64,000 bases of DNA from Natronorubrum aibiense (lineage in GTDB: Archaea > Halobacteriota > Halobacteria > Halobacteriales > Natrialbaceae), in the NCBI RefSeq assembly GCF_009392895.1, contig NZ_CP045488.1, positions 434,001-498,000 of the forward strand. Direction: 5' to 3'. Position numbers and translations under genes: made by a program. Under the pieces are notes generated by a model. The model ran no database searches. It was given only the letters and a program-made list of their open reading frames with translations, and was not told where the DNA came from. Within the stretch, counting starts at the first letter, position 1; each line of letters opens with the position of its first letter. Of the stretch, positions 1-59,893 are shown piece by piece.

Positions 1-575
1 ACGATGTTGGGCGCGATGACGTTCGACGTGACACCCGACTGGGCACCCTCGAGCGCCATCGTCCTGCCGAGGCCGATCATCGCGGCTTTCGTCGCCGAAT
101 ACGAGAGTTGGCCGAAGCCGCCGTACCAGCCGGCCATCGACGACATGGTGACGACCCGGCCCCAGCCGCGCTCGCACATCCGCGGGAACACCGCCTTGCT
201 GATGTTGTACGTCCCGGTCAGGTTGATCTCGACGTCGCGGTTCCAGATGTCGTCGTCGTAGTCGCCGATGCGCGAGCGGGCATCGACCATCGCGGCGTTG
301 TTGACGAGGATGTCGACGCCGCCGAACTCGTCACGCACGTCGGCCAGCGAGTCCGCGACGGCGTCCGCGTCGGTCAGATCGCACTCGAGAGCCATCGCCT
401 CACCCGTATCGGCCGTCTCGTTGATGCCGTCCGCGACCGCCCGCGCGCTGTCAGTATCCACGTCGAGGACGACGACGTTCGCGCCCTCCTCGGCGAGCAG
501 TCGGCAGTCTGCGCTTCCGATTCGTCCGCCCCCGCCGGTGACGACGGCTGTCTTCTCCTGCAGTCCGAGATCCAT
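1..575 (-). CDS. SDR family NAD(P)-dependent oxidoreductase (C-terminus cut by window edge)
   Basis: Short-chain dehydrogenase/reductase of the classical type; the coding sequence starts with ATG at 575 on the minus strand and runs off the left edge, so about 190 residues are visible. Near the N-terminus is the nucleotide-binding motif VVTGGGGRIG, then the NNAA structural motif, and the catalytic Tyr-x-x-x-Lys appears as LSYSATKAA. An acidic residue follows strand beta-2 (VLDVD), which favours NAD over NADP, though this is only suggestive. Substrate cannot be told. It is divergent from the CoA-transferase gene at 736, and a shared 160-bp AT-richer gap separates them, so both may belong to one acyl-CoA or hydroxyacid pathway (inference). 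Confidence 0.9.
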   Translation of the reverse strand, partial: MDLGLQEKTAVVTGGGGRIGSADCRLLAEEGANVVVLDVDTDSARAVADGINETADTGEAMALECDLTDADAVADSLADVRDEFGGVDILVNNAAMVDARSRIGDYDDDIWNRDVEINLTGTYNISKAVFPRMCERGWGRVVTMSSMAGWYGGFGQLSYSATKAAMIGLGRTMALEGAQSGVTSNVIAPNI

Positions 576-56265: not shown

Positions 56266-56273
56266 AGTTATAG
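56266..56273 (+). promoter_or_regulatory. TATA-like box for the H-NOX transcript
   Basis: AGTTATAG centred 26 bp before ATG 56295. By haloarchaeal rules, transcription should start near 56295, about 60 nt before the H-NOX ATG, so the H-NOX gene likely has a leader or a coupled upstream ORF. Confidence 0.45.
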
Positions 56274-56294
56274 TTGAAAGAGAGAGTGACTATC

Positions 56295-56372
56295 ATGGAA
56301 AGTGGGATGTTTTTCACGAGAAGCAGCCGACAAACTGGGTCTGGAGGGATCGAATGCACGGAATTATTCTGA
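56295..56372 (+). CDS. possible upstream ORF, 25 codons
   Basis: ATG-started frame, MESGMFFTRSSRQTGSGGIE then CTELF and TGA, beginning exactly where transcription is predicted to start and ending 16 nt inside the H-NOX gene. A GGAGG motif precedes the H-NOX ATG inside it. It may couple translation, or it may be non-coding leader; the peptide has no recognisable family. Confidence 0.3.
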   Translation: MESGMFFTRSSRQTGSGGIECTELF

Positions 56373-56974
56373 AAACGCTGCAGGCGTTCGTCGTCGATAC
56401 CTACGGCGAAGACGCCTGGCTGTCCGTGCAACGAGAGGCGGACATCGAGGAGAAAGTCTACGTCCCGGTGACCGTCTATCCGGACCGTGACGTCTACGAA
56501 ATCGCCCGCACGGCCGGCGAACTCACCGACCAGAGTCCGCGGACGATTCTGACACAGTACGGCAAGTGGGTCGTTCCGGCACTGCTCGAGACGTACGACC
56601 TGCACATCGACGACGAGTGGAACGGACTGGAACTCATCGCGAACATCCAGCAGTTTCACACGTCGTTACGGACGCGGGATCTGACGACGCTGACGACGCC
56701 ACGGATTCGGTCGGAGCGCCTCGACGAGGATCGGGTTCGGATCACCTACGATTCCGACCGCAAGCTGTGTGACGTCGCTCGCGGCGCGATCGAGGGCGTC
56801 GCAGAGCGGTTCGACGAAAACCTCGTCGCCGAAGAACAGACGTGTATGCACGAAGGAGACGACGCCTGTCGGTTCGATATTCGACGGGCCAGCACGGACA
56901 CCGGGTCGGCAGCCACGTTCGAATTCGAGTCCGAGTCAGCGTCGAACGCGACACTGGGAGGGCAGGATGACTGA
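56354..56974 (+). CDS. H-NOX heme nitric-oxide/oxygen sensor
   Basis: A 206-residue heme-binding H-NOX protein. It starts MHGIILKTLQAFVVDTYGED as the family does. The proximal heme His is residue 102 (ANIQQFH), and the heme-propionate motif Tyr-x-Ser-x-Arg is intact at Y132-S134-R136. A C-terminal Cys pair, CMHEGDDAC (164, 172), matches the family end. Family members bind NO and sometimes O2 and signal to a partner. ATG 56354 is preceded by GGAGG. The gene overlaps the transducer gene by 8 nt, so this pairing is almost certainly a functional sensor-transducer. Confidence 0.9.
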   Translation: MHGIILKTLQAFVVDTYGEDAWLSVQREADIEEKVYVPVTVYPDRDVYEIARTAGELTDQSPRTILTQYGKWVVPALLETYDLHIDDEWNGLELIANIQQFHTSLRTRDLTTLTTPRIRSERLDEDRVRITYDSDRKLCDVARGAIEGVAERFDENLVAEEQTCMHEGDDACRFDIRRASTDTGSAATFEFESESASNATLGGQDD

Positions 56975-58586
56975 CGCAGCGCCGACTGCGGGTGATCGAT
57001 CGCCACTTCCGGGCGCGATACAGACGGCCCGACCGCTCGGATTCGGGCTCACGGTCGTCGTCGTCGGTCTCGCCGCCGTCGCCGCTGCCGCCGTCGGCCT
57101 CGGCGAGTTCTCGCCGACGCTGCTTGGCGTCGGCGCTGGTGGCGTCGTTGCGACCGGCGTCGCGGCTATCGCCATCGCCGCGGTTTCGGACGCCCGTACC
57201 GCGCCACGTCAGCGTGACGAGCTATACGCGGCCATCGATGACGTCGCCGACCGAACGGCCCGACTCGAGGACGGCGATCGCGACGTCGACTTTCGGACCG
57301 ACGGGGACGACGCCGTCTCCCGACTCGAGACCTCGCTCGCGTCGCTTCGCGAGCAACTGGCGGCCGGCGAACGAACCGATCAGTCGTTGAGCGACCTCGA
57401 GCGCATTGTCGAGACACACGCCGAGACGACGGGCTCGGTCGCCGACGGCGATCTCACTCAGCGGTTCGAGCACCCGACCACCCACGACGCGGTCGAGGAA
57501 CTGGCGGACAACTCGAACGAGATGCTCGCCGAGATCGAGGAGACGTTCTCGACGCTGAAGTCGTTCTCCGGCGAGGTCGTCACCTACAGCCACGAACTGA
57601 ACACGAGTATGGAGACGGTTCGCGCCGAGGGCGACCGCACGAGCGAGGCGCTGACTGCGGTCGTCGAGGACAACGAGGAACAACACGAGCAGCTGCGAAC
57701 CGTCGCCGCGGAGATGGAGTCGTTCTCGACGACGGTCGAGGAGATCGCCGCGACGGCCTCGGAAGTCGCCGATACGGCGGACCGAACCGCACGTGCCGGT
57801 CAAGAGGGCAGTCAGGCTGCAGGCGACGCGATCGACGGCATGGACGTCATCGAGACGGAGACCGAACGAACGCTCGAAGAGATTGAGCAGTTAGAGGCCG
57901 AAGCCGAGCAGATCGACGACCTGGTCGACTCGATCAGCGACATCGCCGAGCAGACGAACATGCTGGCGTTGAACGCCAACATCGAAGCGTCCCGCTCTGC
58001 CAGCGGTGAGCAAGGATTCGGCGCCGTCGCCGACGAGATTCAGAACCTCTCCGAGAAGGTCTACGACTCGGTCAAATCCGTCGAGGAACGCCTCGAGACG
58101 CTCAGAGGGCGAGCGATCTCAGCGGCCGACGAGGTCCGGACTAGTCGCGATCGTATCGAAGACAGCGTCGACGACGTCGAAAACGCCGCGAGCGCACTCG
58201 AGCAGATCGCCGAACTCGCCGAGCAGACGAACAACGGCGTTCAGGAGATCTCCGCGGCGACCCAACAGCAGGCAGCTGCGACCGAAGAGGTCGTCGTACT
58301 GGTCGAAAACGCCGCCGAGACGAGCGAGCGAACCGCAACGACGTCGGCGCAGGCGGCCCGGCGGGCGTCCGCACAGGCCGAGGCACTCTCGCACGTCGCC
58401 CACAGCGCGACCGTGCTCACCGAGCACGCCGGCGAGTTGAACGCCCACCTCGAGCGCTACGACACAGAAGGCGGCTACGACCTCCCCGAGGCGAGAGCCG
58501 CCGCCGACGTCGATCCCGAAGCGGTCTCGACGGCCGATCCGATGCCGGAGGCGATCGACGACACCGGGTTCGCTCCGCAGGAGTAG
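56967..58586 (+). CDS. membrane methyl-accepting chemotaxis-type transducer
   Basis: A 539-residue transducer. Two N-terminal membrane helices (about 24-45 and 50-73) with almost no extracellular part are followed by HAMP-like regions (about 100-135 and 159-196) and a long coiled-coil signalling domain whose hairpin tip reads ISDIAEQTNMLALNANIEAS (about 323-342) and continues to EQGFGAVADEIQNLSEKV. It lacks its own sensor domain, so the overlapping H-NOX protein very likely supplies the signal from the cytoplasm. ATG 56967 precedes the helices; the frame is open upstream but without support. Confidence 0.9.
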   Translation: MTDAAPTAGDRSPLPGAIQTARPLGFGLTVVVVGLAAVAAAAVGLGEFSPTLLGVGAGGVVATGVAAIAIAAVSDARTAPRQRDELYAAIDDVADRTARLEDGDRDVDFRTDGDDAVSRLETSLASLREQLAAGERTDQSLSDLERIVETHAETTGSVADGDLTQRFEHPTTHDAVEELADNSNEMLAEIEETFSTLKSFSGEVVTYSHELNTSMETVRAEGDRTSEALTAVVEDNEEQHEQLRTVAAEMESFSTTVEEIAATASEVADTADRTARAGQEGSQAAGDAIDGMDVIETETERTLEEIEQLEAEAEQIDDLVDSISDIAEQTNMLALNANIEASRSASGEQGFGAVADEIQNLSEKVYDSVKSVEERLETLRGRAISAADEVRTSRDRIEDSVDDVENAASALEQIAELAEQTNNGVQEISAATQQQAAATEEVVVLVENAAETSERTATTSAQAARRASAQAEALSHVAHSATVLTEHAGELNAHLERYDTEGGYDLPEARAAADVDPEAVSTADPMPEAIDDTGFAPQE

Positions 58587-58789
58587 TCGCGGATCAGTGC
58601 AGCGCTTCGTGATCGGCACCCCCCGCTCGAAATTTCGGGTGGATTCGACTCGAGGGAACGACCTCGCGGGCCGTCCGACCGCGACCCGACGCTGCGTGCG
58701 GGTAACGATGTTCGCTTGTTCGATCACGATCGATAAACTGCTAATAGTTACTGAAAAGAGTGAAGAGTGCAGCGACAGTAACGCCGATA

Positions 58790-59893
58790 ATGGCGTATTC
58801 GATCCGTTCGTTCACCGATTCCGACCTCGAGTTTTCGACAGGTGAACTGACGGGTGCGCTAGGAGATTCGATTACGGTTCTCCCATTGCTGGTTGCGCTC
58901 GCTGCGACGACGAGCGTCTCGCTGCCCCACGTGCTGGTCGGCTTCGGTGTCTTCCAGATCGTCTGGGGCCTGTATTACGGCATGCCGCTTTCAGTCGAGC
59001 CGATGAAAGCCCTGATCGGGCTGGCGATCGTCGGCTCGCTTTCCTATCCCGAACTCGCCGCCGCCGGGCTGCTCGCGGGGGGTGTGCTCCTCGCCGTTGG
59101 ACAACTCGGCCTCGTCGGTCGCCTCCAGACGATTGTCGGCGAGCCCGTGATCCGTGGCGTCCAGTTCGCCGTTTCCCTGCTGTTGCTCGAGGCAGCCGTC
59201 GGACTCTCGAGTGGCAACCTGCCAGTCGCCGCAGCCGGGATCGCCATCGTTGGCCTGCTAGCTATCGTTGGCTACCGACAGGCGAGCGTGTTGTTCGTCC
59301 TCGGCCTCGGGAGCGTCGCGGCCGTCGCGACGGCCGGCATCCCAGCGCCTCAGTTGCCCGATCCCGTGCTCTTTCCGGCAGGAACGCCGTCGCTTTCGGG
59401 TGCAGCCCTCGAGGGCACCGTCGCCCAGCTCGGAATGACAGTCGGGAACGCGGCGATCGCGACCGCGCTGCTCTGTGGCGACCTTTACGATCGAAACATC
59501 TCCGCTGACACGCTCTCGACGAGCATGGGCGTGACCTGTCTCGCGGCGATTCCCTTCGGCGGCGTCCCGATGTGTCACGGCAGTGGCGGACTCGCGGGGA
59601 AGTACGCCTTCGGCGCGCGAACCGGCGGGGCGAACGTCCTCCTCGGCGTCGGCTACCTCGCGCTCGCACTGGTCGCCACCGGAGCGCTGCTGGCTGCGTT
59701 CCCACTGTCCGTCCTCGGCGTCTTACTCGTCGTCGTCGCCCTCGAACTCGCGCGCGCGGCCGTCTCCCCGGTCGACGGCCACCGCGGGCTTGCGGTCGTC
59801 GTCGGCGTCGGCGTCGCCGGGTTGGCGATCAACGTCGGCGTCGCCTTCGTCCTCGGGACCGTCGCGTTCTGGCTCGTTTCCCGGCTCGAGTAA
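58790..59893 (+). CDS. molybdate/sulfate transporter of the MOT1 (SulP-like) type
   Basis: A 367-residue integral membrane protein with about 10-12 helices. The signatures FSTGELTGALGDSITVLPLLVAL, LSVEPMKALIG and PMCHGSGGLAGKYAFGARTGG match the MFS_MOT1-annotated family, eukaryotic members of which import molybdate. No STAS domain follows. The start at ATG 58790 is preferred to GTG 58760. Function in sulfate or molybdate uptake follows from the family only; no molybdenum genes are near. Confidence 0.87.
   Translation: MAYSIRSFTDSDLEFSTGELTGALGDSITVLPLLVALAATTSVSLPHVLVGFGVFQIVWGLYYGMPLSVEPMKALIGLAIVGSLSYPELAAAGLLAGGVLLAVGQLGLVGRLQTIVGEPVIRGVQFAVSLLLLEAAVGLSSGNLPVAAAGIAIVGLLAIVGYRQASVLFVLGLGSVAAVATAGIPAPQLPDPVLFPAGTPSLSGAALEGTVAQLGMTVGNAAIATALLCGDLYDRNISADTLSTSMGVTCLAAIPFGGVPMCHGSGGLAGKYAFGARTGGANVLLGVGYLALALVATGALLAAFPLSVLGVLLVVVALELARAAVSPVDGHRGLAVVVGVGVAGLAINVGVAFVLGTVAFWLVSRLE

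Follow-up and report, generated by a model that had tools for sequence, protein, structure and literature searches.

A split H-NOX and transducer gene pair in haloarchaea: a candidate nitric oxide receptor with a probable output on type IV pili

H-NOX signalling has been described for bacteria and animals. In the stretch of haloarchaeal DNA analysed here (64,000 nucleotides, G000:C1:434001-498000, hereafter the window), an H-NOX gene overlaps the gene of a transducer (MCP) devoid of any sensor domain. Which ligand would such a haem protein report, and which cellular machinery would respond? The source genome (G000, 4.35 Mb, 99.98% complete) contains two H-NOX genes, four MCPs and a single CheA. 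Full-text literature searching returned no account of haloarchaeal H-NOX or of such a system in archaea, an absence that is no proof of novelty, and HNOB goes unmentioned in a 2022 survey of archaeal chemoreceptors. Our main reading, to which we give a probability of roughly 60%, is that the pair forms a two-gene NO receptor whose CheA output would most likely act on a type IV pilus. The observations on which we draw are the anatomy of the pair, the constraint on its residues, its conserved pairing, the H-NOX-led Che operons of other genomes, the absence of archaellum genes and the synteny of che and pilus genes.

Anatomy of the gene pair

The product of the first gene (table 1) is recognized by the Pfam HNOB model (PF07700; 118 bits against a cut-off of 25.5, E 5e-34, positions 1-161 of 163), with a V4R match on its C-terminal part. 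The haem-ligand His falls exactly at residue 102 and the YxSxR motif reads Y132-D-S134-D-R136 (YDSDR, 132-136), so both are complete, as the initial annotation stated. Pro116, both hinge glycines (Gly70/Gly144) and the residues of a zinc-type site (Cys139/Glu161/Cys164/Cys172) are also present, and the acidic tail (179-206) is variable. By sequence, the closest PDB entries are the H-NOX domains of Shewanella (oneidensis) and Nostoc. The AF2 model came from an 11-row alignment and has a pLDDT of 54, too low for pocket geometry to be read from it. Its use was therefore limited to fold recognition, in which the top 44 matches were all H-NOX. Position 56266, where the feature had initially been started, belongs to the upstream region and offers no coding start; a conserved promoter 5' of the H-NOX gene was considered and dropped, the alignment being too divergent for a claim.

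Table 1. Coordinates of the gene pair, its parts and related loci of the same genome (window positions unless a contig or locus is given).
Feature	Position	Strand	Remarks
H-NOX (haem-NO-binding) gene	56354..56974	+	206 aa
Sensor-less transducer (MCP) gene	56967..58586	+	start ATG 56967; 539 aa
8-nt overlap ATGACTGA	56967..56974	+	MCP start inside H-NOX stop
Purine-rich GGGAGGG	56956..56962	+	just 5' of MCP ATG
MCP parts (residues)	TM hairpin about 23-73; HAMP-like helices about 80-159; signalling hairpin about 173-502		
MOT1-type molybdate transporter	58760-59893		next gene past MCP
che-pilus locus of G000	G000:C1:2176000-2208000		L177, L178
Protoglobin-MCP (HemAT-like)	L158:4591-6342		in G000
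Second H-NOX, without haem His	L087:5706-6254 (G000:C1:1345714-1346190)		

The transducer matches MCPsignal (98 bits, E 5e-28, Pfam), and IAEQTNMLALNANIEAS forms its hairpin tip, near 344-349. Hydropathy places two N-terminal helices at about 27-45 and 55-73 with a short loop between them. The AF2 model (pLDDT 67) is all-helical, with the membrane hairpin at 23-45 and 50-73 followed by helices at 80-101, 113-159, 173-343 and 350-502. Two membrane helices and no sensor, as first proposed, is thus an accurate description, and 'HAMP-like' is a fair wording: HAMP scores 10.8 bits, under the Pfam cut-off of 25, and the model has helices where HAMP is expected. Nearly all paired MCPs of relatives share this short-loop TM hairpin and likewise lack an extracellular or sensor domain; two (G234, G328) have no TM segment.

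The 8-nt overlap reported in the initial annotation is also borne out, and an ATG stands at the -8 position in all ten named Natrinema and Natronorubrum relatives whose contig carries the two genes. The purine-rich stretch ahead of this ATG is possibly a ribosome-binding site. Both genes are under purifying selection, dN/dS against relatives being 0.10-0.15 (H-NOX) and 0.14-0.33 (MCP). In many relatives, but not all, the MCP is likewise followed by a member of the cluster to which the MOT1-type transporter belongs.

Pairing and Che operons across haloarchaea

HNOB matches were found in 85/391 sampled genomes of the class, the sample being a subset of that class. We examined the genes around 115 distinct H-NOX matches, 114 of them scorable at residue 102; neighbour genes were called by home-made ORF picking, and the gene starts of relatives are approximate. 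A same-strand MCP lies at most 1.5 kb downstream in 34/45 H-NOX with His102 and in 1/69 without it (two of the 11 unpaired His102 genes sit at contig ends). The Fisher P of 2.6e-18 for this association overstates independence, since it largely reflects one clade split: in the H-NOX tree, the proteins lacking His102 form a single clade (support 0.83) inside the His-type lineages. The best reading of this pattern is that His-type lineages kept the pairing, which was lost once, together with the haem ligand. The initial annotation had suggested surveying haloarchaea for the pair and, run on this sample, the survey finds it kept in many of them and not fortuitous. A fused archaeal H-NOX-MCP was not found among the 115 distinct matches.

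In other haloarchaea the pair stands within larger operons. The order H-NOX-MCP-CheW-CheY-CheA-(CheX-like)-CheC-CheD occurs in five genomes (G078, G245, G304, G183, G277), some of these clusters being confirmed gene by gene and others in part, and two further genomes (G373 and G383) have CheA-CheC-H-NOX-H-NOX-MCP-CheW. Six CheAs from H-NOX clusters fall together in the CheA tree as one split (support 0.994), separate from the archaellum-linked CheA (0.996) and from a third CheA class (0.867). Shared operons and a CheA clade of their own thus tie H-NOX to signalling through CheA in genomes far outside this genus. In three of the loci (L050, L051, L104; from G277, G383 and G373), a tandem pair of His102 H-NOX genes precedes one MCP and may, with it, make a two-sensor receptor.

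The survey also delineates H-NOX proteins of other kinds. The second H-NOX of the source genome belongs, together with 68 relatives, to a haloarchaeal family that has no haem His. Residue 102 in this family is Tyr (40), Ala, Val, Thr or others; the three Cys are kept in 61/69, and the MCP link is absent bar one (L057). Its members, which may bind no haem or hold it through the Tyr, lie in a conserved context (PRPP-synthetase/phosphoribosyltransferase-like gene, HVO_0234 propeller, PGM/PMM gene). In other families of the phylum (L164-L172, mostly f16), the H-NOX proteins are stand-alone and have His, YKSRR or YKSQR and a hydrophobic residue near the position of the O2-binding Tyr. DUF2117 or CDC48-like genes adjoin them where scanned, and no MCP was detected in their 1.5 kb flanks.

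Ligand and output

H-NOX proteins that bind O2 have a distal Tyr (Tyr140 in the Tt protein), while the NO-type has a hydrophobic residue in its place (PMC12329717, PMC8738867). The residue aligned to Tyr140 is Val141 in the window H-NOX, and the 45 His102 proteins have V, L, I, F or W at this position, with Tyr in 0/45. As the O2-stabilising Tyr is absent, we predict from sequence that the ligand is NO, not O2. The 'NO or O2' of the initial annotation is in this way narrowed: its NO half is favoured, and its O2 half is not supported, the Tyr being replaced by Val. An O2 sensor would still have a precedent in the fused H-NOX-MCP of Caldanaerobacter (Thermoanaerobacter), where output domain and membrane attachment are as here (PMC8738867). 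We nevertheless hold it very improbable given the distal residue (Val here; Ile, Leu, Phe or Trp in relatives), the replacement of two further pocket residues of the Tt protein (Trp9 and Asn74 by Leu9 and Val73) and the protoglobin MCP of the same genome, a separate receptor that could already serve O2.

Somewhat less improbable, though still unlikely, is that the Cys139/Cys164/Cys172 cluster (with Glu161) senses oxidants as a redox or zinc site and that haem is secondary. All three Cys occur without exception in the His102 proteins (45/45) and, as noted, are mostly kept in the paralogous clade without His102. They match the Shewanella/Vibrio site of zinc-type H-NOX (groups 2/3), a redox role has been reported for the haem-free Vibrio cholerae H-NOX, and in that protein (Vc H-NOX) a disulfide at the Cys site mimics NO activation (PMC7108781). 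Against this stands the equal invariance of His102, Y132, S134, R136 and P116 (45/45), which shows that the haem site is strongly constrained in the MCP-linked group. Moreover, the fourth zinc ligand, His or Gln in the known groups (at So 161; PMC7108781), is Glu in 42/45, the window protein included. NO as the ligand of a haem-bound H-NOX is the reading that we carry forward. A connection with copper nitrite reductase was also tried: nirK exceeds the cut-off in 25/37 genomes with His102 H-NOX and in 183/354 others. With a Fisher P of 0.08 this co-occurrence is weak, and we claim no link to denitrification; no nirK match over the cut-off occurs in the window's own genome.

On the output side, the genome gives no match to archaellin/FlaF/FlaG (PF01917), FlaD/E (PF04659) or CheF (PF04283). 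As positive controls, a congener (G116) matches PF01917 and PF04659, and other genomes match all three. Among 30 sampled genomes with an adjacent pair, 14/30 have no archaellin and 23/30 no CheF. CheF-type proteins have been described as integral to archaeal che regions, the exception being che2 of Methanosarcina (PMC2666748); archaellins and FlaD/E occur without a CheF match in Natronorubrum/Natrinema genomes G116, G164, G193, G028, G143 and G307.

The sole che cluster of the source genome (CheW, CheY, CheB, CheA, CheC, CheD, CheR) lies tail-to-tail with genes for a PilB3-like ATPase, T2SSF and the pilin-operon families DUF7287/7288/7261/7266/7289, an orientation that means the che and pilus genes are not one operon. 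In Haloferax volcanii, PilB3-PilC3 assembles the PilA pili (PMC4371748). The same synteny occurs in 20 genomes with His102 H-NOX, among them 18/30 of the sampled genomes with an adjacent pair, and also in two genomes without H-NOX (G181, G032); in five paired genomes (G128, G031, G179, G234, G328) no che-pilus adjacency was found within 20 kb. Further Natrialbaceae loci that set a complete che cluster tail-to-tail with a PilB3-type pilus operon are L179, L181-L183, L189-L201, L206, L207, L210 and L211. Archaellum genes and CheF are also present in G160, G308 and G242. The pilus-adjoining CheA of three close relatives carries one Hpt and lacks a receiver domain, and bacterial pilus-class CheA has multiple Hpt and a C-terminal receiver domain (PMC10782961); by architecture, then, the archaeal CheA is not of the bacterial pilus class. 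A pilus or attachment output, rather than swimming, is the likelier one in this organism, because no archaellum or CheF match is found and its only che cluster adjoins a pilus operon.

These data weigh directly on the gas-taxis that the initial annotation envisaged, in which the H-NOX-MCP pair would sense NO or O2 and bias archaellum rotation via CheA, CheY and CheF. Taxis is the classical role of MCPs and CheA, and several paired genomes (G160, G308, G078, G245, G304, G373, G383) do have archaellins and CheF. Yet the window's genome has none of the matches that such a route needs, many paired genomes fall short in the same way, and the CheA that shares an operon with H-NOX falls outside the archaellum-linked clade. 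We consider gas-taxis improbable, and the proposal is unsupported for this organism. Extremely improbable is that H-NOX and MCP are fortuitous neighbours in separate pathways. Some His102 H-NOX genes do have no MCP nearby, e.g. those of some Natrinema genomes that overlap or adjoin a flavin amine-oxidase-like gene (L108:3950-5747, L048, L061). However, gene order is kept in several families, the overlap is invariant in the near group and H-NOX heads full Che operons; the conserved ATG position in the ten relatives and the low dN/dS exclude a pairing by chance.

Proposed pathway and known systems

A split NO receptor acting on pili could work as follows. The cytoplasmic H-NOX, probably haem-bound, would bind NO (and CO) but not O2, and would be the detachable sensor of the receptor, whose MCP is held in the membrane by its TM hairpin. 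NO binding would break the Fe-His102 bond and shift the two H-NOX subdomains, which may alter how H-NOX touches the MCP, at a putative contact on its HAMP or signalling helices, and, through CheW, raise or lower CheA activity. Translational coupling via the overlap would keep the two subunits in step. The only CheA found in the genome appears not to be wired to an archaellum, and its output would act on the adjacent PilB3-type type IV pilus, that is, on attachment or biofilm. More broadly, and more tentatively, at somewhat less than even odds, haloarchaea may use a chemosensory pathway that responds to NO, runs from H-NOX through the sensor-less MCP to CheA, and governs type IV pili and life on surfaces, not swimming; in several families it would have a dedicated CheA class in one operon with H-NOX.

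If true, the conserved split NO receptor with its link to CheA would be a defined NO signalling pathway for archaea, and its extension to the pilus would be an archaeal counterpart to NO-to-biofilm signalling in bacteria and to pilus-class chemosensory systems. A 2016 census saw no evidence that chemotaxis systems regulate type IV pili of archaea apart from the archaellum (PMC4858521); the che-pilus synteny bears on such control. Both points, the NO receptor and the che-pilus link, are testable in culturable Natrinema and Natronorubrum strains.

Known systems resemble the pair in part. H-NOX partners had been taken to be usually cyclases or kinases, a generalization that overlooks the H-NOX fused to MCPs in obligate anaerobic bacteria (PMC12329717, PMC8738867). 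Since the pairing of H-NOX with an MCP is already known, the novelty is limited to its split, NO-type form in archaea. The fused proteins (Caldanaerobacter/Thermoanaerobacter tengcongensis, PDB 1u4h; Tt Tar4H) share H-NOX input, membrane attachment and MCP output with the haloarchaeal pair, whereas the latter consists of two overlapping genes instead of one polypeptide, has an H-NOX with the Cys3 site and without the distal Tyr, and occurs in aerobic hosts. The stand-alone NO-type H-NOX of Shewanella, Vibrio and Caulobacter (HnoX-HnoK) likewise have their gene beside that of the effector, a hydrophobic distal pocket and the Cys3 zinc-type site, and include the closest solved structures by sequence. 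Their effector is a histidine kinase or c-di-GMP enzyme, often tied to biofilm, and in haloarchaea it is an MCP feeding CheA. Archaeal HemAT (protoglobin-MCP), of which the genome has one, likewise couples a haem gas sensor to an MCP in haloarchaea, but it is a fused globin-fold protein for O2, in contrast to the separate H-NOX-fold protein predicted to bind NO.

Bacterial Tfp systems (Pil-Chp) have, as in this genome, a che cluster beside type IV pilus genes and no archaellum link. The CheA of the present type differs in being archaeal and in its simpler domain make-up, and its control of the pilus is presumptive. Finally, haloarchaea have other two-gene receptors, in which a separate sensor is encoded next to the transducer gene: sensory rhodopsin with HtrI/HtrII, and BasB/BasT. 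The H-NOX pair would follow the same plan, with the difference that its sensor is predicted to be a soluble haem protein for a gas.
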